Shown here: piece by piece, positions 1,347-50,920 of the stretch | How the letters are laid out: each line of letters starts with the position of its first letter | Numbering within the stretch: position 1 is the stretch's first letter | NCBI GenBank assembly: GCA_948567375.1 | Contig: OX419756.1 | Location: 40,624,333-40,688,332, forward strand | Direction: 5' to 3' | Source of the DNA: Lunularia cruciata | Lineage: Eukaryota; Streptophyta; Marchantiopsida; Lunulariales; Lunulariaceae | Length of the DNA: 64,000 bases | Notes under the pieces: model-generated | Seen by the model: only the letters and a program-made list of their open reading frames with translations | Told to the model about the DNA's origin: nothing | The model's database searches: none | Translations under genes and position numbers: made by a program

Positions 1347-2078
1347 ATGGCTAGACTAGAGGAGTTGCCAACTAGACCGGCCTTTGAGAGAATGCGGTTC
1401 ACACCTGATGTTGTCCTATTGGATAAGCAGAGGGGGATTTTCCATTTGGTGGGAACTTTAGGGAAGGTCTGTACACCACATAGAGTCTTATTAGACTCTG
1501 GTGCGCAGCTCCTTATGTTGGGGAAGGTTGTAGTAGTCGGTCTGGAGTTACGAAAGATTAATGTGGAGAGGTGTCCATTTCAGATCCAGACATATCTAGG
1601 TGGTGGTTCAACATAGTACATCACACGTGGGGAGCTTGTTGGCCAGGTTCAACCTGGTCATCTGATTGATAGCTCGGAAGTGAGAGTTCAGGCTATTGCA
1701 ACAATAGTTGAGTCATATGATGTGCTAGTTGGAGGAGCAATGTTATACCCCATGGGTTTCAATATTGACTATTGGGAGGAGACAGCCCCCTATAGACCAA
1801 GTTGGCAGTCTGGTGAGGGACGGGTATGTCACCTACCAATACGCTTCAGTAGTGGTAGTCTTGGCTCACTACAATCTGGAACCATGGCATCATCAATTTT
1901 AGCTTTCAATGGTGCATTTACTTGGCCTGGTGACTTGTTGGAGGAGAACACCCATGCAGAGGATACTACAATACCAAAAGAGATCACTCGGATTTGGAGT
2001 ATGAGTTGGATTGTTCCATCCACCTTGGATGTTCCATTGTGGAGTTCAAAGGAGGCATTACAACAACATGTAGATTAG
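1347..2078 (+). pseudogene. aspartic protease region of copy A
   Basis: Retropepsin-like region of the polyprotein, which would cleave Gag-Pol into mature proteins. The catalytic signature VLLDSGAQ is encoded near 1486-1509 and lies in the expected place between gag and the polymerase part. The downstream stretch contains YDVLVGGAMLYPMGF and then IDYWEE, a conserved flap/C-terminal segment also readable in copy B (about 16010-16080) and copy C (about 46380-46470). Two stop-separated open stretches (1347-1616 and 1680-2078) cover it. The DSGA match and position make the assignment firm, but the reading frame is broken. Confidence 0.75.
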
Positions 2079-2081
2079 TTA

Positions 2082-3240
2082 GTGCAACAGGATTGGAGTG
2101 GAGCCTTTGTACCATCGGTAGATGAGTATGAAGATGAGCATCTAGAGTTGATTACTTTGACACCTTTGGATACCACACTCATTGCTTGGCAATATCTAGT
2201 AGAGGGGATATGTCTATTGGAGTTGTTTGGTGGGATTAGCACCGGACTAGCTACAATATTACAGGTGGATATACAAGTACAGAGGTACTTGTATGTAGAG
2301 AGAGATGAGACTGCTAGGCGAGTCTCTCTACATCATGTGGCACACTTGGCCTATTGGTATCCGGAGTTATTACCAATGTCAGCAGTTAGAGGTTACCAAA
2401 AGGCCCTACTAGTAAACATTTCTTTATTGGGGGGCGCATGATCTAGAGAGACATGGGCCTATTCACTTGGTGTTTGTTGGATGGCCATGTTAAGGACATA
2501 CACATGCGGGCCAAGGTTTGGATCTTCAGGATCCTCATTCTAGTGTGTTTTGGGAGATGTTATAGATACTACAACATCTCTAGGTTCATCAATCTGTTTC
2601 TCTAGTTTACTTTTTGGATAACGTTCCGTTGATAGGTGATTCTTGCACTAGAGTGGTGGCGAGTACACATCAAGTCCATTCTTAGATGGGACCTGTTGTA
2701 TTGTCAGATGTAGCCAGAGTGGGATCACGTGCTCATTTTCTTTGTCTTTGGTGGACAAACCTCTTACCCAGAGAGGTTTACATCGTGCTTATGATGGGAT
2801 TCAGCGACTTGACCACATCCTTGTTGATGATATCTTGGATGTTGGGCGTTAGTCTCAAACAGTGGTAGTGGCTGATAGGTCACCTTTGGCAGTGGTGAAC
2901 CTAGTTGGACAGCCTAGAGCCACATTTGTCACACTCATGAGTTTACTTGGCTCTCATGCTTTTTGAGAGAGAGGACATGGACTTGTTTGGGACTAACAGT
3001 TATAGCAATTGGTAGAGCCCAACGTTGATGAGAGAGAGACAACGAGCAATTGGTTTTTGCACCGGTATTATTGCTATTCTAGCAATGTCAGAGGCATCAA
3101 GGCGTCAAGTGTTAGGTCAGGCTATGGACCTAAACTATTTGACCTAGATTATGAGCCTTGGCTTGGTAGAGCAGCATAGGATGCACTTGATAGGTATCAC
3201 CACTCGGACACTTGTGAGCCCTGTGCCTATCAAGATGATT
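2082..3240 (+). pseudogene. C5-cytosine DNA methyltransferase domain inside copy A
   Basis: A DNA methyltransferase domain embedded between protease and RT. Motif I (AdoMet binding) reads LLELFGGISTG at 2214-2246, followed by a YLYVERDETARR segment. After a +1 frame change, motif IV reads VGWPC at 2476-2490; the next codon is TAA where copy B has CAA (PCQ). Motif VI reads FLDNVP at 2611-2628, with Asp where B and C keep Glu. Motif VIII reads VGSRAH then LWWTNLLP at about 2716-2775. Motifs IX and X read IGFCTG and RRQVLGQAMDLN at about 3045-3132. The order is conventional rather than the rearranged DRM order, and motif X resembles DNMT3. Such enzymes transfer methyl from S-adenosylmethionine to cytosine C5. 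Stops and frameshifts show it is now dead. Identification is by motifs only. Confidence 0.85.
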
Positions 3241-3639
3241 TAGGAAAATGCTGGGAGCAATGGACCAAGTGGACATGGTATTCTTGGGACACAACCAGTA
3301 GCTACTAGGGAGGGTGGTCTACTTGGAGTCCACCTAGGTGAGTGTGGGCTACTTGGATTACACCCTTGGTCCACTTGGGATGCAGCTAGAGGACATGTGG
3401 AGCTTGTAGCCAGAGTGGAGGGATTTTTTCATACAAAGGTTTGGACCTCTAGTGATCGGGAGCATGACACTATTGCTCCCAAGGGCCCAATGTAGCAGCC
3501 AATCAATATGTCTTCCACTCCTAATACAGTTATAGAGGATACTTGGGAGCTTGATCTTGGACCCAAGCTTATTGGAGAGGAAAGACGGAAGGTTTGGAGG
3601 TTCATGAGGAGCCACATGAGTTTTTTTGCCTTCAATATG

Positions 3640-5000
3640 AAGGATTTGGGTGCTCTGAAGTGACCTGGTATACAAATTGAGCTGACTAGCAATACACCAG
3701 TTTTCCAACGTCCTTATTGATATAGTGATATGGAGAGGACATTGATTTAGAGCCGGATTAGTGACCTTTTTGAGGTTGGTTTGGTGGAGATTTCACATAG
3801 AGAGTATGTATCAGTGACAATGATGCCAACCAAGAAAGATATGCATGGAAACTACATAGATAGACGGATGTGTGGAGAGTATCGTCCTATCAACCAACAA
3901 ACCAGGGTGTGTCATGCCTACACCGGAGGAGATTTTTGTTGCGATTGGGCATGCAAAGATCTTCAATACTTTGGATCTTTGAGCTAGATATCATCAATTG
4001 CCGATCTCAAGGAGGAGGACAAGTCCAAGACAACATTTAGTGCTATTGATCCTCACGGCAAGGATGTGTTATATTACTAGAGGTTCTTACCATTTGGGTT
4101 AAAGAACGCTCCTGTTGAGTTCTAGAGGGTCATGGATAGGATCCTAGCTAAATTGGATTTCACTTGGTGCTATATTGATGACATTTTGGTCTATAGCTCT
4201 ATTGTGGAGGAGCATGAGAGATAGTTGTTGGAGGTGTTTGAGACGTTGAGATCTCATGGACTCAAATTACATCTTGGGAAGTGTAGGTTCTTCCACCAGC
4301 AGGTTGAGTATTTGAATCACACTATCTACCTCAAAGGACTTGGTGTTTAGCAAACCAAGGTGGAAGCTATTGTGCACATTCCTTGGCCTACGGATGTGAG
4401 CAGAGAGCAAGCATTTCTTGGGTTGGCAAACTTCTATCACCGCTATATTAGAGGATTTAGTGTCATTGCCAAGGCATTAATGAAGCTGACCAAGCTTACA
4501 CAAGAGTGGGGTTGGGGAGATGAGCAAGAGAGAGCTTTTGTAGAGCTCAAGGAGGGGTTGACATCTGCTCCTATTTTGAGGAGACCGATCAGAGGACAAC
4601 CATTTCATGTTCATACTGATTAGAGTATGTTGGAGCTTGGAGCGGTGCTCACCCAACATGATGATGAGGGGAAGGAGTTTGTGGTGGCCTATGATAGTTA
4701 CTCCAACAATTCAGCGGAGGCAAAGTATAGTTCATATGAGAGAGAGTGCTTGGCAATAGTTTGGGAAGTAGCACATTTCCGATGTTACCTATTTGGTAAC
4801 CCTTTCACTCTCATCATTGATCATCAACCGCTGAAGTGGTTGATGGAGTCCGACAAGCTTTCAAGGAAGCTTGCATGACGGGCTCTGATTTTACAAGAGT
4901 ATGATTTCACGGTTGTTCACAGACCTGGAGTGGTGAACCGTGATGCAGATGGGTTGAGTAGAACCAACCCATCTGCATCACGGTTCCAACCAGTAGAATC
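3640..5000 (+). pseudogene. reverse transcriptase and RNase H of copy A
   Basis: Polymerase part of copy A. The N-terminal RT segment reads PTKKDMHGNYIDRRMCGEYR (about 3826-3885). Next comes LPFGLKNAP near 4090, the catalytic CYIDDILVYSS at about 4170-4200, and the thumb/connection segment AFLGLANFYHRYIRGF near 4410-4460. RNase H follows: VHTD near 4612 (first Asp; a stop follows), YERECLAIVW near 4735-4764 (Glu) and LIIDHQPLKWL near 4809-4841 (Asp). YIDD is an accepted variant of the Ty3/gypsy YVDD/YLDD box. Stops occur throughout, so no activity is expected. The RNase H tail runs into an inverted repeat at 4935-4986. Confidence 0.9.
4935..4986. repeat. inverted repeat, 22-nt arms with 8-nt loop
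   Basis: Positions 4935-4956 are the exact reverse complement of 4965-4986. It lies at the end of the RNase H region of copy A. Copy B (near 19200) and copy C (near 43300) have no second arm here, so the right arm arose in copy A, apparently by a local template switch that copied the neighbouring strand. Confidence 0.9.
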
Positions 5001-5362
5001 AAACCAGAGCACATTAGCATGGTGAGATAGATGAGGAGATGGTGCCAAGTTGACATGCATATGCCTTTCTCTATATATTTTTTGAGGCTTTGGTGCTATC
5101 TTTGTCAGCGCATACAAGAGGAGTTATTGAGGTCATAGATCCAAAGAGTGAAGATATTGGTACAGTTCAGCAAGACATTCATGATGATGTCTTAGTGATG
5201 TACTATCTTTGCATTGGTGTTGTGGGTGGTATAGTTAGGGCCAAGGAGAGAGACCGTATTCTTCAGCGAGCCAGATGGTTCAGATTGGAGGGTAGGTACC
5301 TTTTGCATGTATGGGAGGATGGTAGAGTGCAAGTAATACCACTTCCATCTCAGAGACCATAG

Positions 5363-6240
5363 TTGGTCCTTCATGCTCATGAGGAGTTAGGACATTTTGG
5401 AGTTAAGCATACATACAACTGACTCTAGAGTCGTTATTGGTGGTGCGGTATATAGACCAAGGTACAACAATTTGTTGCCAAATGTGTGGTTTTTGATTGA
5501 GTTAGAGCATCATTCAATGCTCCTACACCACAGTTACACCCATTACCTATCATGGGATTGCGTTACCGTCGGAGTTTGGACTTTGCTGGACCTTTACCGC
5601 TGATTGTGAGACATCATCGGTATGGCTTGGTGATGGTGGAGCACTTATCTAAGTGGATTGAGTTGGTGGCACTTCCTGACAAGTCTAGTGAAGGGACAAC
5701 TTACTCGTTCCTGGATCGAGTTCTTAGTCATTTTGGTGCACCAACTAAGGTTTTGACTGATCAGGGTATAGAGTTCTTGGGGGAGTTTCAAGTCTTGTGT
5801 GACAAGGCTTTGATTGATCACTTCTCAGGATCACCCTAAGGAAAATGGCTTAGCAAAGAGAGTGGTTCAAACAATGAAGAGAGGATTGAAAAATTGTGGT
5901 TGCAAAGAGGCCACTTAGGAGATTAGGATCTACAATTACCTTGGTTGGCCATGGGCTATCGGTTCAGCCGGCAAGCCTCCTTAGCATCCTTCTCTCTGTA
6001 CTTTCTACTATATGGACAAGATCCAAATTTACCTACAGCTATTTGTCAAGATGCTACTATTGTCTTGGACTTGGATGACCCAGATGTATGGATGAGTGCA
6101 TGTTCTCAATGAGTAGAGATCCTTTGGAGAGTGATGCCGATGGCCTTTGAGAACTTGGTGATTGCTCAGCATAGAGATACTTTACGCTATGCTATCATTC
6201 AAGGAGGAGGTTATAAACCCTTGATCTGTCGATTTCATCC
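5363..6240 (+). pseudogene. integrase of copy A
   Basis: Integrase of the gypsy polyprotein, which would join cDNA to host DNA. A zinc-binding start is visible as HEELGHFGVKH at about 5371-5410. Further on, copy A shows CVVF where a second Cys would be expected. The catalytic core shows RRSLDFAGPL (first Asp, near 5579), KVLTDQGIEF (second Asp, near 5759, about 60 residues on) and, after a frameshift, KENGLAKRVVQTMKR (Glu, near 5841). The D,D,E spacing is normal. The C-terminal part continues to about 6240 and leads into the PHD finger segment. Frames are broken near 5835 and 5900. Confidence 0.85.
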
Positions 6241-6274: not shown

Positions 6275-6624
6275 ACGCCAATGACACTTGATGTTTTGAC
6301 AAGCTGCACTATCTTGAGAGTGCGTGAGGTTTTGCCATCTGGAGTCCTTTTGTTAGAAGGACATGATGATGTTTTTTGGAAGGATCATGTGCACAATTGT
6401 GTGCCATGCCACCTCCCAAACATTGATGGTACTCTGGACCCAAGCTTGGCACTTGTACGTGCAGGCTTGAGGTGTATGTTATGTGGCTCTTCTGGCAAAG
6501 CTGCTACTATGTTGGTGTGTGATAGCTATTTGAGAGGATGACATATGGCATGTATGACTCCTCCCCTCCCCCCTGGTGGTTCCTTAGGGACAGTGGTTAT
6601 GTCCTAGATGTACTTGACCTATAG
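6275..6624 (+). pseudogene. PHD finger at the C-terminus of the copy A polyprotein
   Basis: Directly after the integrase comes a conserved segment (CTILRVREVLPSGVLLLEGH, then CVPCHLPNIDGT) and then a zinc finger. Visible zinc ligands: CMLC at about 6475-6486, VCD at about 6517-6525, HMAC after an in-frame TGA at about 6541-6552, TPPLPP, and in another frame QWLCPRC at about 6590-6610, followed by Thr and a stop. The fourth Cys is Tyr here but Cys in copies B and C. Together they give the C4HC3 pattern of a PHD finger including the conserved Trp before the last Cys pair. PHD fingers usually bind histone H3 tails. The position is that of the chromodomain in chromovirus integrases. Confidence 0.8.
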
Positions 6625-6786
6625 CTAGTTCATTCTTTATATGGTATAGATTGCAGACAAACGACTAACAATGGGGCTCCATAGCACCTGGCCTCCTGAT
6701 CTTTGCCCATCAAGGGGTATACCATATACTTGGGGTAGATGGCTATTTGGAGTTAGAGGGACCTAACCGCCAGCTAGGAGGGCAAT

Positions 6787-7391
6787 TGTGGCACTTTAGA
6801 GTTTATGTATGACTTATGTGTGAGTTGTGCTTCTATAGTGTATAGTGATGTATGTTGTGTAGCGATGTATATATGCACAACAACTGTCACACCATTTGTA
6901 GTGTCGCATCTAGATTGCTCGGACACTGGAGTTTTAGTGATAGTAGTTAGAGGCATTCTGGCAATTATTGATAGACTACTTTCCAATAGTCAGATTTCAA
7001 GTTTAGGGTATTGATTTCATGGTGGGGCACACCGTCACTTGCACCATCTGCACCATTGGATGTGCCATCAGCGGGACCGTTGGGATGAGACCCAGGTTGA
7101 AATCAAGGGTATACCTTGGAAGTGTAACTCTAGAGAGCTCACTTCTTTGATGTTGAGCCTTTGAGTTCCTAGCTAGGGTGGGTGTGGCTTGACTGTAATT
7201 AGTGCTCAATTGTTGGCAAGTTGTTGAGGATCAAATCAAGTATTGATTTGAGTTTGATTGATTCAAGTTGTAAACGATCTGATTATGATGGCACTTTAGA
7301 GTTTATGTATGACTTATGTGTGAGTTGTGCTTCTATAGTGTATGATGTTGACAATAATGTATTTTGTGTAGTGATGTTTATACGCATAATA
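6787..7391 (+). repeat. LTR of copy A
   Basis: Begins TGTGGCACTTTAGAG at 6787. It matches the LTR-like units of copy B (21028-21647) and copies C/D (40808-41472, -), which end in ATGCACAACA, giving TGT...ACA termini. The first and last roughly 105 bases are direct repeats of each other (second start near 7286). The end is placed by comparison with copy B and is approximate. Confidence 0.65.
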
Positions 7392-7455
7392 GCTACCATA
7401 CCAAATTTGGCGGTGGTTTTGGTTTGGCAGAGCACATTGAGCTCAACATGGTGGA

Positions 7456-7460
7456 AGAGA
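7456..7460. repeat. target-site duplication, left copy
   Basis: AGAGA directly before the 5' LTR of the nested element; repeated at 14661-14665. Confidence 0.75.
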
Positions 7461-8193
7461 TGTAATACCACAAGCTAGCCATATGATCTAGATGTGAAAT
7501 TTGGTTTGGTAACATCTAGAATGATGTTATAAATGATGGTCAAAATAGATAAGATAGAAGTATCACCAAAAGAGTACTTTTACTAATAGAGCAGAAACCC
7601 AAATAGACTTGAGAACTTTAGAACCAATAGCTAGACATATAATTTAAAGGTGAGAATTGGTTTGGTAACATCTGGAAGGATGTTACACATGATGGACTAA
7701 ACAGATCAGAAAGAGGTGTCACCAAAAGGGGACTTCTACTAATAGACTAGGAACCAAAATATGCCTAAAATCTTTGAATGCAATTTTGGAGGCCTAAACG
7801 GATGAATTAGGCCTCAAAAATGTGTAGATTCCTTCCCCAGTGGAGGAAGAGTTGGCCTTCCTTCCCCCTAGGTTTATCTTGTCGAGAGCTTTCCAACAGT
7901 ACCTTACATGATTCTGAGATTCCTACAGGAAGATTCTCTAAAAGATTTCTTTTGGTCAAAGCTTGTTTGACCAACCAGATAGGACCTAGACCAACATGTC
8001 ACCCATCCAAGTAAGTAATCCAAGGGTGGAGCTTGATGACATGTCACTTATCTGTGTGCCTAATCCTATGGTGGAACTTCCTTGGAAGAGATCCTCTTTG
8101 TCTATATAATAAAGAGAAGGTGCTCCTTTGGGGCACTGAATGTTGAGTGTGTAATTTGGGTTTTCTCTCTTCTCTTGTCCTCGGAGTGTTACA
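7461..8193 (+). repeat. 5' LTR of the nested chromodomain element
   Basis: Starts TGTAATACCACAAGCTAGCC and ends GAGTGTTACA, so the termini are TGTAA...TTACA. It is 733 bases long and matches the 3' LTR at 13996-14660, which lacks a short block near the middle. A TATATAA-like promoter motif lies near 8100-8110. The visible divergence between the two LTRs means the insertion is not recent. Confidence 0.92.
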
Positions 8194-8194
8194 A

Positions 8195-8207
8195 TGGTAT
8201 CAAAGTG
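8195..8207 (+). other. primer binding site (initiator tRNA-Met type)
   Basis: TGGTATCAAAGTG lies one base after the LTR end and resembles TGGTATCAGAGC, the site complementary to the 3' end of initiator tRNA-Met used by most plant gypsy and copia elements. Three mismatches are consistent with decay. Confidence 0.8.
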
Positions 8208-8333
8208 AGTGTCTTAGACCAAGAGAGTGGATCATCCCTCTTGGAAGAACACAAACTTCTGAAACTGAGTAATTTGAGGTGGAGAACATAGAGTAATTGT
8301 TAGACTTAGGAAGGAGTTTAGAGAGCAGACGAG

Positions 8334-10580
8334 ATGGATGCACCGGGAGGACAATTACCTGCACCTAGCTTTCCATTCCCAAATCCATTCCACAACAAGG
8401 TTATGTACATCTAGCGTGAGCAAATGAGGGTATTGCTAGTTGTAATACTCCGAGTACAAGAGAAGAGAGAAAACATAGATTGCACACTCAAACATTTGAT
8501 GCCCCAAGGGAGCACCTTCTCTTTATTATATAGACAAAGAGGATCTCCTCCAAGGAAGCTCCACCATAGGATTAGAGACACAAATAGGTGACATGTCAGC
8601 AAGCTCCGCCCTTGGATTACTTACTTGGATGGGTGACATGTCTGGTCTAAGTCCCATCTGGTTGGTCAAACAAGCTTTGACCGGAGGGAATAGGAATCTC
8701 AGAATCACATGAGTAAGGTACCATTGGAAAGCTCTTGACAAGAAAAAGCAAGGGGAAGGAAGGGCCAACATTTCCTTTGTTGGGGAGGAAATCTGCACAT
8801 TTTTGAGGCCTAATTCATCCGTTTAGGCCTCCAAAATTGCCTTCAAAGATTTCAGACATATTTTGGTTCCTACTCTATTAGTAGAAGTCCCCTTTTGGTG
8901 ATACCTCTTTCTGATCTGTTTAGTCCATCATGTGTAACATCCTTCTAGATGTTACCAAACCAATTCTCACCTTTAAATCATATGTCTAGCTATTGCTTCT
9001 AAGGTTCTGAAGTCTATATTAGTAGAAGTACTCTTTTGGTGATACTTCTATCTTATCTATTTTGACCATCATTCTAGATATTACCAAACCGAATTTCACA
9101 TCTAGATCATATGGCTAGCTCTTGGCATTACACTAGTTTATCACTTTGGTGCAAAATTTGTGGATAGGGTGATGAATTCACCAAACCCGATGATTCTACC
9201 TGTGGTGATATATGATAGTGAATGGGATTTGACAATCTACATTCTATTATGATGATATGGATGTGAATGTTCCAAATCATCTCCCTTTCAGCACTCAAGT
9301 AGAAATCTATTATCTAGTGAGACCGAAAGTGATGTTTAAAGATTTTGTGGTTAGGAATTTTGGTGAGGAGTATTATCAACGAGTGATAGCTTCTAAGGTC
9401 CCAATGGTAGTTTTGATAGTGCGTGCATCTTCTAAAGTGATCATATTGACTTTGTATTGAAGTAAATATTAGCAATTGAGTGTTGCAAGAACCATGGATC
9501 CGCAATTGCAAGAGCTGGTGCAAGGAATGAAGGGGATGTTGAATGAATTTTGAGAAATTAAGATGACCATGGAGACATTACATTGCAAATCCTCAAGAAC
9601 GATCAAGCCATGCAAGAAGAAGAGCCGTCTCAAAACCCAATACCTTTGATAGAAGTACTTGGAGAGACACTTGTGCCTATGAACCCTATCAACGATGAAG
9701 CCATATTGCTACTACGGATGAAGAAGACCTGCAACATCAAGTCTTACAAGGGGTAGCGTATGATGGGAGTAGTGGAAAATTGGATCTCAAGAATGAATCA
9801 ATATTTCTGATTGTTCTCAATAGAGATCATGGAGTATGCTGCAAGCATGTTTGCATGTTGGTACTTGACCAATAAAGCCCTCACATGGTATAATGCTTGG
9901 GAACAATCCATGTTGGCATAGAGAAGGGAGGTCACATGGACAGCAATGCAAGAAGGATTGCTGAAGAATTTCCAATTGATGGATTTTGTGCAGATGGCTC
10001 AAACCCGACTATGGGGATTGAGATAGAAGAATAGCATACAAGAGTATGTGGAGGCATTTCTGGATCTACAAGTCGCAATAACCAACATGAGTCCAGCAGA
10101 GGCTCTTGACAATTTCAAACAAGGGTTAAAGGAGTGGATTCACCAAGAAGTCATGGTGCAAAATCCTCACACGGTATTTGAAGCCATTGCTTGTGCGCAG
10201 AGAGTAGCAAGAGCATTGGGTGGAGGTGAAGGAGTAGTTCCACCTCAACATTATTGGGCAGAAATGCCGCTCATGGGTGGACCAATACCGATAGAACTGG
10301 GCAACCTTCGATTTCAAGATCAAAGAGCAGAACCGCTTCAAGGGGAGCGTGGACGGGTAGAAGAACAAAGAGATGGAGTCCCACAAGGAGAAGAACTTGA
10401 GGAGAAAAATGCCGTTGTTACAATTGTGGCCGTATTGGGCACATATCTACCAACTGTCACAATTTTTTCCCTAGAGACCCTCGGCCTTTGTATAGGCAAT
10501 CTTTGAACAACATGGAGAGGCGCATTGAAGAGGAAGAGGTGGAAATCACTTTGGAAAATGAAGATTGCCAATAAATGTAC
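8334..10580 (+). pseudogene. gag of the nested element, split by a solo LTR
   Basis: The likely start is the ATG at 8334 (MDAPGGQ). The reading is interrupted by the inverted solo LTR at 8441-9132 and resumes after it. A capsid-like core is visible across frames: ACWYLTNKALTWYNAWEQS near 9860-9910, then a more open part at 10048-10400 (VEAFLDLQVAITNMSPAEA, DNFKQGLKEWIHQEVM). A CCHC knuckle CYNCGRIGHISTNC lies at about 10421-10462. This would be the structural Gag polyprotein packaging the RNA. Many stops; inactive. Confidence 0.85.
8441..9132 (-). mobile_element. solo LTR inserted in reverse within the nested gag
   Basis: The reverse complement matches the LTR of the surrounding element over its whole length, from TGTAATGCCAAGAGCTAGCC to GAGTATTACA. 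The five bases CTAGT occur on both sides (8436-8440 and 9133-9137), so it is an independent insertion with its own target-site duplication, later reduced to a single LTR by recombination between its ends. Confidence 0.92.
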
Positions 10581-10639
10581 GTTGTGGCCTTACTGGCTCA
10601 ATAAGGAAGAAGAGAAGCGAGGGAAAGAAGAAGACTAAT

Positions 10640-13740: not shown

Positions 13741-13784
13741 ATTCCACACAAGACATTCAACCTTGTCCGACACTCATTGATGGC

Positions 13785-13982
13785 ATAAAAGAATATGACG
13801 TGGAGCGTATTCTCCAAAAACACATGCGTGGTACTTGCCATCTATGGGTGGAATATCTCATACAATGGAAAGATTATCTCCTTTGTGAAGCAACATGGGA
13901 GTCTGCTGCCAATTTGAGACATGCACCGGTGTTGGTGCAACCAATTGAGCAACAATTGCACAACGATGATGTTGCATCTTAA
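13785..13982 (+). pseudogene. chromodomain of the nested integrase
   Basis: The end of the polyprotein reads EYDVERILQKHMRGT, WVEYLIQWKDYLLCEATWES and AANLRHAP, the aromatic-rich pattern of a chromodomain (Tyr...Trp-Lys...Trp-Glu). In chromoviruses this module binds methylated histone H3 (usually H3K9me) and biases integration to heterochromatin. The frame is open from 13800 to the TAA ending at 13982, immediately before the polypurine tract. Confidence 0.88.
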
Positions 13983-13995
13983 AAGGAGGGAGGTC
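13981..13995 (+). other. polypurine tract of the nested element
   Basis: AAAAGGAGGGAGGTC directly precedes the 3' LTR start, as expected for the plus-strand primer. Confidence 0.85.
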
Positions 13996-16429: not shown

Positions 16430-17560
16430 CTATTACCTTGTCACCTTTGGAGGCAACATCTATTGCTTGGTAGAATCCAATGGAGAGAGTATGCTTATTG
16501 GATCTATGTGGTGGGATCAACACTAGACTAGCCACAGTATTGTAGCAAAGCACATGTGTTTAGATGTACTTGTATGTGAATAAAGATGAGATTTCTAGAC
16601 AATTCACTCTACATCATGTTGCACACTTGGTCAATTGATATTCATAGTTATTGTCAATGTCAATAGTTAGGGATCAAGTTACAATCAAATATTTCTTTGT
16701 TAGGAGCATAAGATCTAGATAGATATGGTCCCATTTATTTGGTGATTTCTAGATGGCCATGTCAAGAACATACCCATGCTAGCAAAGAATAAGATTTGCA
16801 TGATCACCATTTTAGTATGTTTTGAGAGATGTTGTTTATACTATAACATCTTTTATTTCATTAGGAAATTTCTTGAGCATACATTTTGGAAAATATTCCT
16901 TTGATGGGTGACTCTTATGCATAGGTGATAAAGAGTACACATCAATTCTTGTCTTGGATTGGCCTTGCAATGTTGTTGGATGCGGCTTGAATTAGACCTT
17001 GGGCATATCATCTTTGTCTTTGGTGGATAAACCTCTTACCCAAAGAGGTTTTACAACATGCCTATGATGGGAGTCAAAAACTACCACACCTACTATTGAT
17101 GATATTTTAGATATAAGGAACTAGTCATATACAATGGGAGTGGTTGATAGGTCACCTATGGTAATGGTGAACTTTGTTGTACAATCTAAAGCTACTTTAC
17201 TCACACTCATGAGTTTCCCAACTTCCCATGCTTATTTGGAAGGAGGTCCTGAATTTGTTTAGGGCTCACAATTATAATAGTTGGTGAGAGAGAGTGGACA
17301 ATAGAAACCCTAGACTTGTTTGGGACTCGGAATCATAGTAGTTTATGATAGGAGTGGGCAATGGGTTTCCATATCAATATTACTACCATGTCAACAATAT
17401 TAGAGGCATCTAGGCATCAAGTGTTAGGTCAAGCTATGGACCTGAACAATTTGACCTAGATTATGAGCCTTGGATTGGTTGAGTAGCATAGGATGTACTT
17501 TATAGACATCATCACTTGGACATTTGTGAGCTTTGTGCTTATCAAGATGATTCTAACACA
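16430..17560 (+). pseudogene. C5-cytosine DNA methyltransferase domain inside copy B
   Basis: Same domain and position as in copy A. Motif I reads CLLDLCGGIN at 16492-16521 (LFGG decayed to LCGG). Motif IV reads RWPCQEHTHA at 16751-16780, keeping the catalytic Pro-Cys-Gln. Motif VI reads ILENIPLMGDS at 16883-16915 in the same frame, keeping the catalytic Glu-Asn. Motif VIII reads LCLWWINLLPKEVLQ at about 17010-17055. Motifs IX/X read AMGF and RHQVLGQAMDLNNLT at about 17358-17457. Before motif IX, about 17255-17345, there is a short imperfect duplication. Stops between motifs make it inactive. Confidence 0.85.
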
Positions 17561-20589: not shown

Positions 20590-20872
20590 GAGTCCTCATG
20601 TTAGGAGGACTTGATGATGTTGTTTGGAAGTATCATATGAACAATTGTGTGCCTTGCCACCTCTCAACATTGATAGTACTATCGACCTAAGCTTGGCAAT
20701 TACAAGCAATCTTGTGATGTATGTTTTATGGCTCTTCTTATGGAGCTCCTACCATGGTAGTATATGATAGCTGCTTGAGAGGATGGTATATGGCATGTTT
20801 GACTTCTCTCCTCATGGTGGTTCCTCAAGGACAATGGTTATGTCCTTGATGTACTTGACTTATAGCTAGTTC
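20590..20872 (+). pseudogene. PHD finger of copy B
   Basis: The same C-terminal zinc finger as in copy A. Across frames it shows NNCVPCHL near 20640, then CMFY (second Cys lost), VYDSCLRGWYMACLT at about 20761-20805 (third Cys and His lost to Tyr, fourth Cys kept) and VVPQGQWLCP, stop, CT at about 20818-20868. The kept fourth Cys and Trp complement the losses in copy A, so the ancestral finger was C4HC3. Confidence 0.75.
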
Positions 20873-21027: not shown

Positions 21028-21647
21028 TGTGGCACTTTAGAGTTCATGTTTGACTTTTTATATGAGTTGTGCTTCTATAATGTATGATATTGATAGTGAT
21101 ATATGCTAGGTAGCAATGTACATATGCACAATAGCTATCACAACATTTGCAACACCAAATCTAGTTTTCTTAGATGTTAGAGTGCTAGTCTTGGCAATCA
21201 TAACTATACCATTAGTTGCTCAAAGACTACTTAATGGCGGGAAAATTTCATATAAGGGCTACTAACCACACTGTTAGAGCTACCATTTGCACTATCAAGT
21301 AGGCCATCATATGCACTATTATAGCTAGAGCTCCAGGTTTTTTCAAGGGGTATACATCTGAAGTACAACACCAAAGAGCTCATTTCTTTGATATTGAGTC
21401 TTTGAGGGGTTATAATGAAAACAAGATCAAGAGGCATCACCTAAAGTCTCTTAGCTAGAGTGGGTGTGGCTTGACAATGTAATCATAGTCTGTTATTTGC
21501 AATATATTGAGTTGAGTGTTGAGTTTCTAATCCATGTTGAGTATATGACCAATTGATTATTGTGGCACTTTAGAATTCATGTGTGACTTTCTATATAAAT
21601 TATGCTTCTATAGTGTATGATGGATAGCAATGTATATATGCACAACA
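21028..21647 (+). repeat. LTR of copy B
   Basis: TGTGGCACTTTAGAG at 21028 to ATGCACAACA at 21647, 620 bases. The opening motif recurs at 21561, so the unit starts and ends with a direct repeat, as in copies A and C. Confidence 0.7.
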
Positions 21648-40807: not shown

Positions 40808-41472
40808 TGTTGTGCATATATACATCACTACACAACATACACTGTTGTCAACATCACACACTATAGAAGCACTACTCACACATAAGTCATTACATGGACT
40901 CTAAAGTGCCACAATAATTAGTTAGTTTACATAACTCAAATCACTCTCAATCAGATCAGTACTTGATCTATCACTCAATAATCTGCCAACAATTGGGCAT
41001 TGATTACAGTCAAGCCACACCCACTCTAGCTAAGAGAATCTAGATGATGCTCACCAGCCTTTGTCCACCATAGCCACAAGAACTCAAAGGCTCAACATCA
41101 AAGAAGTGAGCTCTGTGGAGTTGGACTTTAAAACTATACCCCCTAGACTTGAGCTAGGTCTCAAACCCTAATGGTCCTATTGACGGCACACCAACAGTCC
41201 AAATGGTGCAAGTGACGGTGGGCCCTACCATGTAGTCAATACCCCAAACACAAAATCTGTCCGTCAACAAGTAATCTATGAGTAACTACCAAAATACTCT
41301 TGACTACCAGCAATACTACTCTAGAGTCCAAGCAATCTAGGTGTGACACTACAAATGGCGAGACAACTATCATGCCTACATACATTGCTACACAATATAC
41401 ATCACTACCAACATCATACACTATAGAAGCACAACTCACACATAAGTCATGCATGGACTCTAAAGTGCTACA
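40808..41472 (-). repeat. LTR between copies C and D
   Basis: On - it begins TGTAGCACTTTAGAGTCC at 41472 and ends ATGCACAACA at 40808, 665 bases. The opening motif recurs at 40913, so the first and last roughly 105 bases are direct repeats. It serves as 3' LTR of copy C and precedes the leader of copy D. Confidence 0.75.
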
Positions 41473-41639
41473 ATCGCTCCCTAGTTGGCGATTAGGTCCC
41501 TCTAACTCCAGAAAGCCATTTACTCCAAGTATATGGTATACCTTATGGTGAGCAAAAGATCAGGAGACCAGGTGCTATTGAGCCACATTGTTAGTCATCT
41601 ATCTTCAATCTATACTATATAAAGGATGAACTAGCTATA

Positions 41640-41990
41640 GGTCAAGTACACCTAAGACATAACCACTATCCCTGAGGAACCACCGAAAGGGGAGGAGTCA
41701 TACATGCCATATGCCATCCTCTCAAACAACTATCACACACTAACATAGTAACAACTCCACCAAAAGAACTGCATACATACACCTCAAGCCTGCTCGTACA
41801 AGTGCCAAGCTTGGGTCTATAGTACCATCAATGTTTGGGAGGTGGCATGGTGCACAATTGCGCACATGATTCTTCCAAACAACACCATCATGTCCTTCCA
41901 ACACAAGGACTCCTGATCGCAAAACCTCATGCACTCTCAAGTTAGTGCGGCCGGTGGAAAAATCAAGTATGATTGGTGTTGTCTGCTATA
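41640..41990 (-). pseudogene. PHD finger of copy C
   Basis: On - the segment starts with VLRSGVLVLEGHDG and CAPCHLPNIDGTIDPSLA (41940-41800). After a frameshift come the zinc ligands: a first Cys in LRCM, then MLVCDSCLRGWHMACMTPPL near 41745-41690, complete with Cys-x2-Cys, His and Cys, then VVPQG, a stop, and WLCLRCT near 41675-41645. This copy keeps both Cys of the CDSC pair and the His, so with copies A and B it defines a C4HC3 PHD finger that ends the polyprotein. Confidence 0.82.
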
Positions 41991-41999
41991 GATATACAT

Positions 42000-42900
42000 A
42001 GTCACCTACATGAAATCAATGGATCAAGGGTCTATAACCTCCTCCTCAAATAGTAGCATAACATAAGGTATTCCTATTTTGAGCAATTGTCAAGTTCTCA
42101 AAGGCCATCAGCATCACTCTCCAAAAGATCTCTGCCCGTTGAGAACATGCGCTCATCCATACATCTAGATCATCCAAGTCCAAAACTACAATAGCATCTT
42201 GATGAATGGCTATAGGTAAATCTGAATCTCATCCATAGAGTAGAAATTAAGGAGAGAAGGATGCTAAGGAGGCTTGTTGGCTGAACCAATAGCCCATGGC
42301 CAACCAAGGCATCTAGAGATCCCAATCTCCCAAGTGGTCTCTTTGCAAACCATACTTCCACATTCTTCTCTTCATTGTCTGAACCACTCTCTCTGTTAAG
42401 CCATCTGCCTTAGGGTGATCTCAAGAGGTAGTACAATAATCAATCAAAGCCTTATCATACAAGACCTGAAACTCTCCCAAGAACTTTGTACATGATCAGT
42501 CAAAACCTCAACTAGTGCACCAAAATGATTGAGAACCCAATCCAAGAACAAGTAAGTTGTCTCTTCACTGGACTTGTTAGGAAATGCCATCAATTCAATC
42601 CGCCTGGAGAAGTGCTCCACCATCACCAAAATGTATTGATGATGTCTCACAGTCAACTATAAAGGTCCAAAAAACCCAAACTCCAATAGTAACCCAATCT
42701 CATGATAGGTAATGGGTGCAACTGGGGCGTAAGAGCATTGAATGATGCTCTAACTTGGTCACAAAACACACATCTTGCAATAAACTATTGTACATTGGTC
42801 TGCATACCACGCCACCAATAATGACTTTGGAGTAAGCTATATGTATGCTTTACTCCAAAATGTCCCAGCTCCTCATGAGCATGACGTACCAATTGTGATC
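42000..42900 (-). pseudogene. integrase of copy C
   Basis: Open pieces at 42656-42444 (MVEHFSRRIELMAFPNKSSE, FGALVEVLTDH with the second catalytic Asp) and 42361-42170 correspond to the core and C-terminal part of copy A. The zinc-binding part is near 42870-42760. Broken by stops; assignment by match to copies A and B. Confidence 0.78.
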
Positions 42901-43299
42901 TTTGAGATGGAAGTGGTACTACTCACACTCTACCATCCTCCCATACACAAAGAAGGTGTTTGCCCTCCAATCTAAACCACCTGGCTCATTGAAAAACATG
43001 GTCTCTCTCCTTGGCCCCAATTGTGCCATCCATAAAACCAGTGCAAAGATAGTCCATCACTAAGACATCATCATGAATGTCTCGCTGAATTGTACCACCA
43101 TCTCCACTCTTTGGATATGTGACCTCAATAACTCCTCATGTATGCATTGAGAGAGATACCATCAAAGCCTCAAAAAATATACAAAGAAAGGCATATGCAT
43201 GCCAACCTAGCATTATCTCCTCATTTGTCTCACAATGCCAACATCTCCGGTCTGATCCTACTGGCAAGGACATGGGTTTCTACTTAAGTGATTTGCATC

Positions 43300-44600
43300 A
43301 CGATTCACCACTTAAGTCTATGAATAATTGTGAAATTGTACTCTTGTAAAATTAGAGCCCATTGTGCAAGCTTCCTTGAAAGCTTGTTGGACTCCATAAA
43401 CCATTTTAGTGGCTGATGATCAGTGATGAGAGTAAAGGGGTTACCAAATAGGTAACATCAGAAATGTGGTACTGCCCAAACTGCTGCCAAGCACTCTCCC
43501 TCATATGAGCTATATTTTGCCTTTGTTGAATTGTTGGAGCGACTAGCATAGGCCACCACAAACTCCTTCTCCTCATCATCATGTTGGGTGAGCACTGCTC
43601 CAAGCCCCAACATACTCCAATCAGTGTGAACCTGAAATGGTCATCCTCTGATCGGTCTCTTCAAAATAGGAGCTGATGTCAACCTCTCCTTGAGCTCTAC
43701 AAAAGCTTTCTCTTGCTCATCTCCCCAATACCACTCATGTATAAGGTTGGTCAGCTTTGTCAAGGCCTTGGCAATAGCACTAAATCCTCTAACATAGCAG
43801 CGATAGAAGTTTGCCAAACCAAGGAATGCTCACACTCTGCTCACATCCGTAGGTCAAGGAATATGCACAATAGCCTCCACCTTGGTCTATTGAACACCAA
43901 GTCCTCTGGGGTAGATAGTGTGACCCAAATACTCAACTTGCTCATGGAAGAACCTACACTTTCTATGATGTAATTTGAGTCCATGAGATCTCAACCTCTC
44001 AAACACCTCCAACAAATGTCTCTCATGCTCCTCCATCATAGTGCTATAGACCAAAATATCATCAATATAGCACCAAGCAAAAACCAATCCAGCTAGGATC
44101 ATGTCCACCCTCTAGAACTCAACAAGAGCATTCCTTAACCCAAATGGTAAGAACCTCCACTGATACAATATATCCTTACCATGATGATCAATAGCCCAAA
44201 ATGTTATCTTGGACTTATCGTCTTCCCTGATTAGCAACTGGTGATATCCTGCTCAAAGATCCAAAGTACTAAAGACCTTTGCATTCCCAATTGTATCAAG
44301 ATCTCCTCTGGTGTAGCCATGGCATACCCATCAGCCATAGTCTATTGGTTGATAGGACGGTAATCTCCACACATCCGCCTATCTATGTAGTTGCCATGCA
44401 TATCCTTCTTGGTTGGCATCACTATAGCTTATGCATACTCTCCATGTGAAATCTCCACCAAACTAGCCTCAAAAAGGTCACTACTCCGGCTTTGCATCAA
44501 TACTCTCTCCATGTCACTATATCAATAGGGATGTTGGAAAACTGATGTATTGCTAGTCAGCTCAATCCGTATACCATATCCCTTCATAGCACCTAAATCC
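43300..44600 (-). pseudogene. reverse transcriptase and RNase H of copy C
   Basis: The open piece 44108-43887 reads FAWCYIDDILVYSTMMEEHE and LHHRKCRFFHEQVEYLGHTI: the catalytic YIDD box and following thumb. 43603-43406 holds the RNase H part ([11 protein letters not shown] frame and its shifted neighbour with the Glu motif). The upstream N-terminal RT matches copy A around 44450-44350. Inactive. Confidence 0.85.
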
Positions 44601-44984
44601 TTCATATTGAAGGCAAAAAAATTTGTGTAGTTCCTCAAGAACCTCCAAACTCTCCGTCTTTCCTCTCCTATAAGCTTGGGTCCAAGATCTAGCTCCCAAG
44701 TATCCTATGTAATTGTCGTAGGAGTGGAAGACGTATTGATTGGCTGCTACATTGGACCCTTGGGAGCAATAGTGTCATGCTCCCAACCACTAGAGGTCCC
44801 AACCTTAATGTGAAAGACTCCGATTGCAAGCTCCATGCGTCCTCTAACTGCATCCCAAGTAGACCAAGGGTGTAATCCAAGTAGACCACTCTCCCTATTA
44901 GCCATTGGTTGTGTCCCATACCTTGTCCATCACCCCAGCATGTGCTTGAATCATCTTGATAGGCATAAGGCTCACAATTGTCCG

Positions 44985-46030
44985 AGTGGTGATGCCTATC
45001 AAGCGCATCCTACGTTACTCTACCAAGCCAAGGCTCACAATCCAGGTCAAACAGTTTAGGTTTATAGCCTAACCTAATATCTAACACTTGGATGCCTCTA
45101 ACACTGTTTGAATAGCAAGAATACCGGTGCAAAAACCCATTTCCCGCTCTCTCTCATTGGCATTGGGCTCCACCAACTATTGTAATTGAGAGTTCCAAAC
45201 CAATCTAGGACCTCCCTCTCAAAAAGCATGGGAGCCTAGGAAACTCATAAGTGTGGGAAAAGCGGCTTTGGGCTATCCAACTAGGTTCACCATTGCCATA
45301 GGTGACCTATCAGCCACTACCACCATTTGAAATTGACGCCCAACATCCAAGATGTCATCAACAATGATGTGGTCTAGTCATTGAATCTTGTCATAAGTGC
45401 ACTGTAGAACCTCCTTGGGTAAGAGATTTGTCTACCAAAGATGAAGATGATGAGCACGTGATCCCACTTTGGTTGCATCTAAAAACAAGGCAGGTCTTAT
45501 CTAAGAATGGACCTAATGTGTACTTTCCACCACATGGCTACAAGAATCACCCATCAAAAGGACATTCTCCAAAAGTTAAGCTGGAGAAAAAACTAATGAA
45601 TATGGAGATGTCGTAGTTTCTGTAACATCTCCCAAAACACACCAGAATAGGGATCTTGAAGACCCAACCTTAGCCGGCAGGTATATGTCCCTAACATGGT
45701 CATCCAAAAATCACCAAATGAACATGCTCATGTCTCTCTAGATCATGCGCCCCCAATAAGGAAATGTTTGCTGGTAGGACCTTTTGGTAACCCCTAACTA
45801 TTGACATAGGATACTAATAGTCCAAGTGTGCCACATGATGGAGAGAGACTTGCCTAAAGTCTCATCTTTCTCCACATAAAAGTAATTCTGTACTTGTATA
45901 CCCACCTATAGTACCATAGCTAGTCCAATGTTGATCCTACCAAACAACTCCAATAGACATACTCCCTCTATTGGATATTGCCAAGCAATGAGTGTGGTAT
46001 CCAAAGGTATCAAGGTAATTGACTCTGGAT
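44985..46030 (-). pseudogene. C5-cytosine DNA methyltransferase domain inside copy C
   Basis: Same domain and place as in A and B. Motif I: SIGVVW-like frame, with LLELFGRIN readable at 45955-45929 (FGG decayed to FGR). Motif IV: Gly, stop, Pro-Cys, stop, Gly at 45705-45688; the stops are TGA for Trp and TAG for Gln. Motif VI: LLENV then LLMGDSC at about 45576-45540, with Glu-Asn-Val intact at 45569-45561. Motif VIII: KVGSRAHHLHLW, a stop for Trp, TNLLPKEVL at about 45475-45415. Motifs IX/X: REMGFCTG near 45160-45135 and the decayed ILG segment near 45085. The conventional order agrees with a DNMT3-like fold. Inactive. Confidence 0.85.
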
Positions 46031-46199
46031 GCTCATACTCACATTGGTCTCCTGGTGGTACAAAGGCTCCACTCCAAGCCTACTACATCAACTAATCTAC
46101 ATGCTATTGCAATACCTCCTCTAAACTCCACAATGGAACATCCAAGGTGGATGGAAAAATTCCACTTGTACTCCAAATCCAAGTGATCTCCTCTAGTAC

Positions 46200-46850
46200 A
46201 GGGTTATAATTTGCATGGGCATTCCCCTCCAATAAGTCACCAGGCCAAGTAACAGTACCACTGAAAGCTAAACTGATGTTGCCATGGTCCCAAATGGTAG
46301 TAAGCCAAGACTGCTACTAGTAAAGCATACTAGAAGGCGACATAATTGTCCATCACCAAACTGCCAACCTAGTCTATAGGAGGTTGTCTCCTCCCAATAG
46401 TCAATAGTGAAACCCATGGTGTACAACACTACTCTCCCAACTAACACAGCATATGACTTAGCCATTGTCGCCATGGCTTGAGCTCTCACCATAAAGCTAT
46501 CAGTCGGATGACCGGGCTGAATTTGAACAGCAAGCTCTCCACATTTGATGTATTGTGTAGAACCACCACCTAAAGATGTTTGGATCTAAAATAGACATCT
46601 TTCCACATTGGTCTTCCATAACTCTAGACTGACAACTATAGGCTTCCCCAACATAAGGGATTGCGCACCAGAGTCAAGTGGTGTATAGACCTTCCCTGAA
46701 GGTCCCACCAAACTAAAAATCCCCCTTTAGTTATCTAACAAGACAACCCCAAGTGTAAACTATGCTCGCTCAAAGGCTGGTCCAGCTGGTAACTCCTCCA
46801 ATCTAATCATTGCTGCCTACCATAAACCACTAGTTGTTGAGCGAATCCCA
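46200..46850 (-). pseudogene. protease region of copy C
   Basis: LDSGAQSLMLG is readable at about 46680-46645 on -, the retropepsin active site. It is followed by the open piece 46492-46268 with MATMAKSYAVLVGRVVLYTM and DYWEETTSYRLGWQ, matching the protease tail of copies A and B. Confidence 0.78.
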
Positions 46851-48918
46851 TGCTCCTCAACCAAGTCAACTCCACTATCAACCACCTCTTCTCTAGTAGT
46901 AGGGATCACATCATCCCTACTCTCACAAAGCATGGCAGCCAATTGGAACATTGGAGTTGGGTCAACTTCCAATGTACACATGTCATTGGCTAAAAATAAA
47001 GGATAGCACATAATTAGTTGAGCTACCTCCACCATTGTGCCAAACTTAATTTGTGTAGTAGTACGTGGTTGACTAATAGATAGTCCATCATGCACCCCAT
47101 GACCACCTACCACACCTACACTAGGACGTCTAGGAGCTATGGATGACGTCTATAGGGCCTTAGAGAGCATAAAAGACTACAAAAGTCTAACCTATCTCCC
47201 AACCTCTCCTCTTTGTGAGTCCAACTCCACTGATGCTCCTCTAAGCTCTAGAGCATGTATTACACCCCTAGTCATTGTGGCAGACGCATCCATCTGAATT
47301 GTCCCGCACATGAAATCCAAGATGTCTCTATATCACCAGCATATGGGGTAGAAGCCTCAACACCCAAATCTAATCTTCTTTGAGTTATGGCCATGCTAGA
47401 CCACATTTATTCCAACTTGTCAATTTGAGTAGCCATGGTTGTATTAAAAGTAAGGGTAGGTATTGCATCCTTACTAGGTATGGATCCTCTATCACCACCT
47501 CTACCACCTCTACCACCTTCTCCTCCATGACTTGGAGCTCCTCTACCACCTGCCATAGTAGCCCTACTACTCCGTACCTCCGGGTGTAGGTCAAAGCACC
47601 GGTCACTAGTGTGACCAAATCTATGGTAATGCTCAAACTGTGTCTATGTTGGCTATGATGCACCAGAGGTATTAGGTCCAATGCCTTGAGTGCACTCTCT
47701 CCTACGGTGAGGTCCACCACAAGTCCAACAAGCAACACCACTACTCACTGGTTGCTTTTGACCCAAAAATGAAGGTAATGATCTAGCAACACCAGGCCCT
47801 CCACTCGCTCCATGGAATCTAGGTTGTCCACCTTATCCTCAAAAACCAACATGGTGTGGTGCACTCTATTGCACTCTAGAAGAAGTAACAGTTATGGATG
47901 AGGTCTCCCTACCAAATTCAGATGTCACCACTCTCTTCTCCACCATGTTAAGCTTAATATACTCAGCCAAACCAAAGACCATTGCCAAAGTAGGTGAAGT
48001 AGCTTGTAACAACGTAGCATCACATACTCTACATTGCAACTCTATGTCAAGTATCCCATACCAAAACTTGACTACCTAGGCCTCAATAACTCCTTGAGTA
48101 AAATTGATCAGCCATCTCATGCAAGTGTATGCCTCACGTAAGCTCTCTCCAGCCTTCCGTTGGAACTTTTGCAAGCTCCTTAGCTTGTCAATCCGCACTC
48201 CCTGGTAGTTCTGCCTCAAAAATTGGAAGAACTCTACCATGGGGTTAAACCCCGGTACTACACCACCTCCACTTGTAGTAGCACCATCTCCAAGAGATCC
48301 ATCAACACTAATAGAGCTAGAACTTGTAGGCACAACCAATCTACTCCTAGAAATTGAGCTTGAAGTAATGGAGACATAGTTTAGAGACAAGTATTGTCTC
48401 CATAGCTCAATCACCTCCAAGTGAGCTCTCCTAAACTCATGGTAGTCATCCATTAATGGACCCTCTAAATGCTGAAACAACCCCTTCCATGCCATGAAAG
48501 GTGTGAACAAAGTTGAGTTCCGCATCTATTGCAGATCACACCAACTATCAAAATCCTGGATGAAGTCATCCAACTCAATGGTACCCACTATACCAGAGTA
48601 ATGTTTGGGGCCTTTGGAGGCTCCATAGATCTCATCCGTGTCCCACAAAAATGGTGCAGACACACCAAGTGCACTCTCAACTGGGTTAACTCTTGTGTCA
48701 GACTCTAACTTAGAGTCAATCTTCTCCCTCATTGGGACTTGAGATACAGGTTGATATTGAACGCCACTCCTAGTAAACCCACTCCATATTGCAATACTAT
48801 CTCCTCCAAAATCCCCAAAGAACTCCGTCATGACAAAGTAACCAAGAATTGTAACCCGTAATTGTAACCTCCGCAAGCACCCCACCAAGTGCCAACACCA
48901 CCAGCTAAACGTCACCAA
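46850..48918 (-). pseudogene. gag of copy C (fullest copy)
   Basis: Reading on -: 48918-48526 begins the conserved N-terminal part (VQYQPVSQVPMREKIDSKLE; ASKGPKHYSGIVGTIELDDF), 48525-48076 is a 149-residue capsid-like stretch (FTPFMAWKGLFQHLEGPLMD; FNPMVEFFQFLRQNYQGVRI; KFQRKAGESLREAYTCMRWL), then the zinc-knuckle part near 47760-47590 (CWTCGGPHRRREC and a second knuckle with lost Cys) and a Gly/Arg-rich tail. The capsid stretch has the normal retrotransposon gag pattern (F..L.......RE....M.W). It is split by a stop near 48526. Confidence 0.8.
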
Positions 48919-49634
48919 CTAATGTAGCTCTAACTATTACTACAACAACAATTATAGGTGAAAGTGCAACCTGTAACCTGCCATCACAACATGCACTCTC
49001 ACGGTCTATAGGTCATCACTTCCTATCTCACCGGAGAGAGAAACATAGGTATTTTGATTGGTCATCATTCTAGCCTCACTACCAAGAGCACACCAAAGCA
49101 CCAATGCTCTAAAGTCAGGGCACCTCACAAAAACAAGGCGCACAAACAAGAAGCAGAGGATGGAGGAGGTCCAATCACAAGAAATCTAAATGAAACCACT
49201 ACATCTCATGAATAAACATTGGACTAACTCTACCACCATTTAGCATTTGACATAATATGAGTTCTCTACTTCTTATAAGCTACCAAGATCAGCTACCAAG
49301 ATCAGCAAGAACAAGATCGGACTGTCTCTCCTAGCCAAAGCTACATGTGTATAGATAACAATGGAACAGTCACTAGGACAACAAGTGAAGGTGGACCAAT
49401 TGGCTAGGGCACTAGTCTAAGAACCAGAGATCTAGGGGTCAAACCTTGTTGTGCACAATCTAGCAAGATGGGCAGATTTTTCCAAAAAATGACAAAAATC
49501 TACTGTAAACTAGCTAGCCTCATGCCAACAAGTTGGCTTGTTGGCCCTTCTAGGCCTTCGGAGCCTCTCATAGCTCACAGCCCTATGCCTTGAAATGCCA
49601 AAATTTAGCTAAATGAGGCCTTCCTTCTTGCCAC

Positions 49635-49668
49635 TTTGAAACTCCTCCAACACTAGAGGAGTTTCAAA
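49635..49668. repeat. hairpin, 13-nt arms, 8-nt loop
   Basis: 49635-49647 is the reverse complement of 49656-49668. Confidence 0.88.
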
Positions 49669-50920
49669 CTCAAAACTCAAAACTCTTCCTAATTTGGCCA
49701 ACGAGCAAAACGTAAGCTCCAACAAAAATTTGACATAAAATCTGATGTAAGTCCCTAAAGTTGGCTAACTGCCAAATCCTCCGCTAGCTCTCTGCTCGAG
49801 CCAAATTGAAATGAAAATTTCTCCAAATCATAAATTCACAAGGATGGGTTCCCAACTCCACCTTCAATTTCACTTTTTGAGCCCATCTTGCACCAGATTG
49901 GTTCTACTTTCACCCCAAAATCATAACCACTGCTCAAAATTGCTTCTCTTTGCTCAAAATTTGGCCAACGCTTCCACACACCGTCTGCCTCATTGCCAAA
50001 TTTGCATCAATCAAATGAGCTTCTGCACATTAGGGAAAAGTTGAACTCCGATTGAGCTACCAATGATCAGCAAGTCTTAGAGATACCACCAACACTCTTA
50101 GTTTGTGCACTCAATTTTTCCTTGACTTCTCTTCTCTGATGTAACCAGTTTGTTTACACAACTCAAATCACTCTCAATCAAATTAGTACTTGATCTATCA
50201 CTCAATAATCTACCAACAATTGGGCATTGATTATAATCAAGCCACACCCACTCCAACTAAGAGAATCCAGGTGATGCTCGCCGGCCTCTATCCACCATAA
50301 CCAAGAACTCGAAGGCTCAACATCATAGAAGTGAGTACTTTGGAGCTACACTTCAAAACTATACTCCTTGGACTCAAGCTAGGTCTCAAACCCTAACGAT
50401 CCCACTAATGGCACACTCGACGATCCAAATGGTGCAAGTGACAATATGCCCCACCATGTCAATTCCCCGAACATGAAATATATCCATCAAAAAGTAGTCT
50501 ATGAGTAACCACCAAAATACTTATGACTACCAACACTACTACTCAAGAGTTTGAGCAATCTAGATGTGATGCTACAAATGACTTGACAAAGTAAAGAATT
50601 GACGGAGTCCAATCACAAGAAATCTAAACAATAACACTCCATTTCACAAATCCAAACAAGATTGATTCTACCTCCATTTGGCACTTGATATAATATAACA
50701 TCTATCTATTCTTACATTACCAAGATCACCAAGGATGAGATCAATTGTAATCTCCTAACCAAAGCTACATAGGTATAGATATGAGTCTACCCATCTTTTA
50801 GACAACAAGTGAGGGTGGTATATGACCACCTTCACTATTAGCAAGGGATCAGAGGAGCATAGCACTCCCTATTGGGATCTCACCACCAAGTCAATGAATG
50901 GGATCAAGGAGAAGCTGCAC

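Follow-up and report, generated by a model that had tools for sequence, protein, structure and literature searches.

Retrotransposons that encode a DNA methyltransferase (MTase) of their own have already been reported, from a charophyte and a dinoflagellate (de Mendoza et al. 2018, PMC5890265). KnitGypsy-Dnmt3 of Klebsormidium nitens is a Ty3/gypsy element with a DNMT3-type MTase whose key residues are kept, while SymbioDIRS-Dnmt3 of Symbiodinium is a retrotransposon combining a DNMT3-type MTase with split repeats. Here, we describe a land-plant counterpart in Lunularia cruciata. The window, i.e., the whole stretch of 64,000 nucleotides that was analyzed (contig OX419756.1, positions 40,624,333 to 40,688,332), contains three decayed copies, A, B, and C, of a Ty3/gypsy family that carries a DNMT3-like cytosine-5 (C5) MTase and, after its integrase, a PHD finger.

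The original prediction held that copy A contains C5-MTase motifs in the conventional order, inside a Ty3/gypsy element and between protease and reverse transcriptase (RT). Both points were borne out, and for more than copy A. When MTase queries from two relatives, P0001 and P0002, were searched against the window by tblastn, the decayed domain was found at 2166..3174 in copy A (plus strand), at 16447..17483 in copy B (plus strand), where it is fragmented, and at 45018..46004 in copy C (minus strand), where it occupies a single frame. With the intact MTase of P0002, expectation values (E) were 4e-72, 1e-65, and 3e-75, respectively, while the best match of the two queries in a reversed-window control reached only 3.9. 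All three copies belong to one Ty3/gypsy family and have this region between protease and RT. Motifs I, IV, VI, VIII, and IX/X of copy A follow the conventional order (not that of DRM), across two alternating frames that shift near 2431 and again near 2778-3038. In-frame stops number 14 in 329 codons in copy C, 13 in 204 in copy B, and 0 in 90 followed by 10 in 248 in the first and second stretches of copy A. With such stops and frame changes, copies A to C are dead. The Pfam check suggested at the outset gave a divided answer. No match to PF00145 was seen in raw decayed single frames with X at stops (0/9 frames, then 0/6 frames of copies A and C), while a protein database search with a copy A piece returned nine proteins (E 1.3e-31 to 4.6e-40), eight of them named Marchantia polymorpha, and seven of the nine score above the PF00145 cut-off. 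The two that it misses, P0006 and P0008, each lack one block of the domain. Against the PDB, a 101-residue piece of copy A gave marginal matches (E 0.095-0.45), 16 of 17 being DNMT3A, and a second MTase piece gave none. Together, these sequence comparisons confirm decayed C5-MTase domains in copies A, B, and C. The split repeats, the PHD finger, the stop behind the MTase, the two Pol orders, and the nesting described below go beyond the original prediction.

As for the type of enzyme, profile, fold, and motif order all mark it as DNMT3-like. In profile comparison, DNMT3 scored far better than Dnmt2, whose match was weak (E 2e-5), and the fold was predicted from a 34-row alignment, an earlier 8-row model (predicted local distance difference test score, pLDDT, 31) having been discarded. 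Two further protein searches yielded 88 proteins (8000 candidates scored) and 221 proteins, 120 of them listed; among the 88, the nearest outside the family is a fish DNMT3B (E 8e-4, 25%). Named sources of the relatives are the liverworts Marchantia and Calypogeia, Sphagnum fallax, Closterium, Haematococcus, and Monoraphidium, whose match is short and covers 19% of the query; one source tag is presumably Chromochloris. The matches also include two fish DNMT3B proteins and one metagenome-assembled genome labelled Minisyncoccia bacterium, all others being metagenome or untitled entries. No protein named Klebsormidium was found among the 88 matches or the 120 listed of 221, and 84 pattern matches in bacterial and archaeal genome contigs contained no relative. 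MTase motifs are intact in relatives from Marchantia, Calypogeia, green algae, and metagenomes, and two transcript-derived relatives, P0096 and P0128, have both MTase and PHD finger. Conservation was counted in 193 MTase segments of suitable length from 203 proteins, the two fish proteins included: the catalytic Cys is kept in 190 and the motif-VI Glu in all 193, while the two Arg of motif VIII are kept in 190 and 192. The residue preceding the catalytic Cys is E rather than P (GWECQ) in 57/193 (e.g., P0176, P0188, and P0042), a variant that is unusual among C5-MTases. Separately, one viral contig (L001) carries a stand-alone MTase about 30% identical to the family; in the best 40 rows, its matches to family proteins all fall inside 4986-5522 and none is to RT or integrase. 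A further 25 loci with partial MTase matches were seen on viral contigs.

The relatives exhibit two domain orders. Where MTase and RT are on one protein, the MTase follows RT in 123 cases and precedes it, as in the window, in 16; 36 further relatives are protease-MTase proteins without RT. The RT-first order forms one group both in an RT tree (25 rows, 99/99) and in an MTase tree (32 rows, 100/99) whose only outgroup is the two fish DNMT3B proteins. When the MTase-before-RT order was tested as a clade, p-AU (approximately unbiased test) was 0.43, a value that neither rejects nor establishes such a clade. Moreover, distances in the MTase parallel those in RT across 32 proteins (Spearman 0.63, 0/2000 permutations). 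This agreement, together with the grouping of the RT-first order in both trees, suggests that MTase and RT have long been inherited jointly and that the order changed once, instead of the MTase being captured many times. The MTase of copy C groups with Sphagnum fallax (SH-aLRT 93), nested in an 11-row set (99) that comprises Marchantia, Calypogeia, Sphagnum, copy C, and three other entries. For individual pieces, the nearest relative is Sphagnum at the start of copy A and Marchantia for those from the middle of A and of B. On these placements alone, a bryophyte would be the probable host.

The remainder of the element is that of a Ty3/gypsy retrotransposon. In copy A (plus strand), an aspartic protease region with the motif LLDSGAQ precedes the MTase at approximately 1440..1740 (residues 1-424 of P0001 match 1140-2435, the protease being residues 101-200). 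RT (RVT_1, 4006..4326, Pfam E 9e-19), RNase H (4513..4902, E 2e-30 and 8e-31), and an integrase with zinc-binding H2C2 and rve core (5348..5824, E 1e-11 and 9e-7) follow it. Copy C (minus strand) retains RT at 43914..44300 (RVT_1, E 3e-22) and integrase at 42492..42907 (H2C2, E 2e-15; part of rve, weak at E 0.027). The order RT, RNase H, integrase with a DDE (rve) integrase, the latter weak in copy C, is that of Ty3/gypsy. Copy C is complete, spanning 9781 bp (40808..50588) with TG...CA ends and a 4-bp target duplication, ACTT, at 50589-50592 and 40804-40807. Ordinary long terminal repeats are alike at both ends, which is not so in copy C. There, repeat A1 at the 5' end (50147..50588) recurs as A2 (40920..41366; 83% identity, 448 nt), while B1, past the coding region (41373..41474), recurs as B2 at the 3' end (40808..40915; 84% identity, 103 nt). 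This A-coding-B-A-B plan corresponds to DIRS-like split direct repeats. The 5' ends of copies A and B are outside the window, and both share the 3' B-A-B part, at 6785..7391 in copy A (B1 6785-6885, A2 6885-7285, and B2 7291-7391) and at 21028..21637 in copy B (B 21028-21131, part of A 21344-21474, and B 21559-21637), both on the plus strand. On the minus strand, repeat A1 of copy C is immediately followed, at about 50146-50133, by TGGTTACATCAGAG, which we take to resemble, with three extra bases, the initiator-tRNA primer site TGGTATCAGAGC.

The question of kinship to the charophyte elements, left open by the original prediction, receives a partial answer at the level of description. KnitGypsy-Dnmt3 belongs to the same superfamily, carries a DNMT3-type MTase with conventional motif order in its coding region, and has an A-coding-B-A-B repeat plan, as in copy C, according to the legend of Fig. 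4c of PMC5890265. The likeness to SymbioDIRS-Dnmt3 ends at the mobilizing enzyme, which that paper describes as a tyrosine recombinase and not a DDE integrase; the element of the window encodes an rve integrase. More generally, DIRS elements share the split repeats of copy C but have a tyrosine recombinase and no target duplication, in contrast to the rve integrase and ACTT duplication seen here. No recombinase match was obtained with Pfam in the decayed frames of copies A and C.

A PHD finger was found after the integrase in all three copies. In copy A (6452..6568, plus strand), the PF00628 match is below the curated cut-off (E 1.3e-3), with tblastn using the PHD finger of P0008 giving E 3e-13; in copy B (20700..20855, plus strand), tblastn E is 8e-11; in copy C (41645..41788, minus strand), PF00628 is above the cut-off (E 2.2e-6; tblastn E 4e-11). 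The finger is present in 126 of 136 integrase-bearing relatives, and eight of the ten without it have 83 residues or fewer past the integrase, the other two having 92 and 556. Its nearest solved structures are CHD4, PHF12, DPF2 (ubi-d4), and ATXR5, which makes a histone-reading role plausible. This arrangement differs from that of DNMT3A and DNMT3B, since neither ADD nor PWWP was found adjoining the MTase and the PHD finger stands instead at the distal end of the polyprotein. It is reminiscent of chromoviruses, which are Ty3/gypsy elements with a chromodomain on the integrase: both have a chromatin-reader-like module after the integrase, in the window element a PHD finger. No chromodomain match was obtained with Pfam in the decayed frames of copies A and C.

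In copies A and C, an in-frame amber stop lies between MTase and RT. In copy A, TAG is at 3493..3495 (plus strand) in the context TAG CAG CCA; at the matching place, copy C has TAG in the same context (44747-44749, minus strand) and copy B has TAG followed by TAA CAA (17772-17774, plus strand). TAG CAR YYA is the leaky-stop context of tobacco mosaic virus. Counting both strands, the window contains five 9-mers of this form, of which that at 17729 (copy B) adjoins the matching place without coinciding with it. In 28 of the 36 protease-MTase relatives without RT, the protein ends 57-168 residues past the MTase. Judging from these positions, the TAG after the MTase would be a genuine amber stop, perhaps with readthrough.

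The copies are nested. The two flanks of copy C match internal family sequence that adjoins at a single point (e3850 / e3848), which indicates that C inserted into an older copy from its own family. Same-family pieces flank it at 39724-40806 and 51328-52000, with about 70% identity and covering gag and the 5' region; they are this older copy, interrupted by C, plus another fragment. The 3' flank of copy A (7392-7460) is internal family sequence of an older copy, which continues as copy B from 14658; copy A and a Ty3-type element at about 7461-14657 therefore appear to have inserted into copy B, at points 65-70 bases apart. That element, younger-looking and without an MTase match, is bounded by repeats at 7450-8194 and 13985-14661 (92%), and several of its frames are open within 10027-13280. 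Beside the nest, a 115-nt repeat is present in three head-to-tail copies (52023-52367). Host-like frames, named by eye, encode an F-box-like protein of 426 residues (54044-55324, minus strand) and a membrane transporter-like protein of 268 residues (32585-33391, plus strand).

We read the locus as three dead copies of a green-lineage Ty3/gypsy family with Gag, protease, DNMT3-like MTase, RT/RNase H, integrase, PHD finger, and split repeats, whose MTase would act on the element's own DNA and whose PHD finger would steer insertion, and we put the probability of this reading at roughly 0.55. The domains and their order, the co-inheritance with RT, the catalytic residues, the split repeats, the stop position, and the nesting are what the analysis shows. 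From these, we infer that in the branch of the window the first open reading frame ends with the MTase, RT-integrase-PHD being made through readthrough of the amber stop. The MTase would thus be translated along with Gag and enter the particle. It might methylate cytosines de novo in newly made element DNA, or do so in copies after insertion. A new copy would then resemble silenced host chromatin from the outset, to the element's benefit, while the terminal PHD finger of the integrase would read histone H3 tails and direct insertion to chosen chromatin. The earlier suggestions that the MTase hides copies, marks targets, or competes with the host would be of the same conditional kind.

Several observations weigh against this reading. 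Past methylation of the copies by CG and CHG systems is reflected in the observed-to-expected ratios: for A, B, and C, respectively, CpG is at 0.28, 0.08, and 0.22 and CHG at 0.67, 0.18, and 0.50, compared with 0.88 and 0.71 (CpG) and 0.94 and 1.13 (CHG) in two host genes. However, the nested Ty3-type element without MTase is at 0.31 and 0.52. Since the depletion in A and C is no stronger than in this neighbor, there is no sign of extra self-methylation of the MTase copies, an idea that is thus unsupported. In a test whose codons were chosen by similarity to a relative, third-position excess was not significant for the MTase of A to C (p 0.16) and was absent or weak in RT (p 0.24, 0.04, and 0.07). 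No copy in the window is able to make the enzyme. The stop of copy B lacks the leaky context, and the TAG may stem from CAG by C-to-T decay at a CHG site. Repeat A1 was seen in copy C alone, and self-nesting rests on two insertions, the 3' flank of copy B having no match to the family. Finally, KnitGypsy-Dnmt3 gave no methylation in a yeast test, which its authors regard as inconclusive (PMC5890265).

Among other explanations, the MTase might act in trans, methylating host DNA or rival elements in a stray or a regulated manner and thereby altering host chromatin in favor of the element, instead of marking its copies. The complete DNMT3-type domain would permit this, and stray methylation of the host was raised by de Mendoza et al. 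(PMC5890265), but the MTase is made within Gag-protease-MTase or Pol and is hence expected in particles; we consider this unlikely. A role other than DNA methylation, be it methylation of element RNA or primer tRNA or mere DNA binding, seems distinctly improbable. C5-MTases do include the tRNA enzyme Dnmt2, weakly matched here, and the E-for-P replacement in 57 relatives could speak for a departure from DNA methylation, yet DNMT3 matches far better, and a nearly invariant catalytic Cys and Glu are unneeded for mere binding. That one element captured a host MTase gene by chance, as a useless hitch-hiker, would fit the death of all window copies but is already contradicted by the presence of the domain in three copies and in about 200 relatives, which range from bryophytes to chlorophytes, by the preserved motifs, and by distances that track RT, and we give it very little credence. 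Chance matches in decayed sequence, for which one could invoke only the silence of Pfam on raw frames, are refuted by the E of 1e-65 to 3e-75 with an intact relative versus 3.9 in the reversed window.

Returning to methylation of the element's own DNA, a more far-reaching version is conceivable, which we put forward tentatively and consider rather unlikely. The family might be a writer-reader system of an ancient green-lineage clade, in which a particle MTase made at the level of Gag methylates new copies and the integrase PHD finger targets the chromatin of older ones, resulting in a self-built silent refuge still carried by land plants, including Marchantia copies with intact MTase motifs.

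The kind of MTase-bearing retrotransposon is known from algae; the variant here is a land-plant branch with a PHD finger and two Pol orders. None of these three features was found in the literature searched, which did not extend to subscription journals and supplements, and a term search of the main text of PMC5890265 returned no occurrence of "PHD," "Marchantia," or "moss." The element carries the very kind of enzyme with which plants silence jumping genes and, in addition, a chromatin-reader finger, and MTase and RT have stayed together despite a changed polyprotein order. Why a transposon should carry its own silencing enzyme has been a question since 2018, and the algal examples are hard to manipulate. 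Since MTase motifs are intact in Marchantia polymorpha, a laboratory plant, and P0096 and P0128 derive from transcripts, this question becomes testable.
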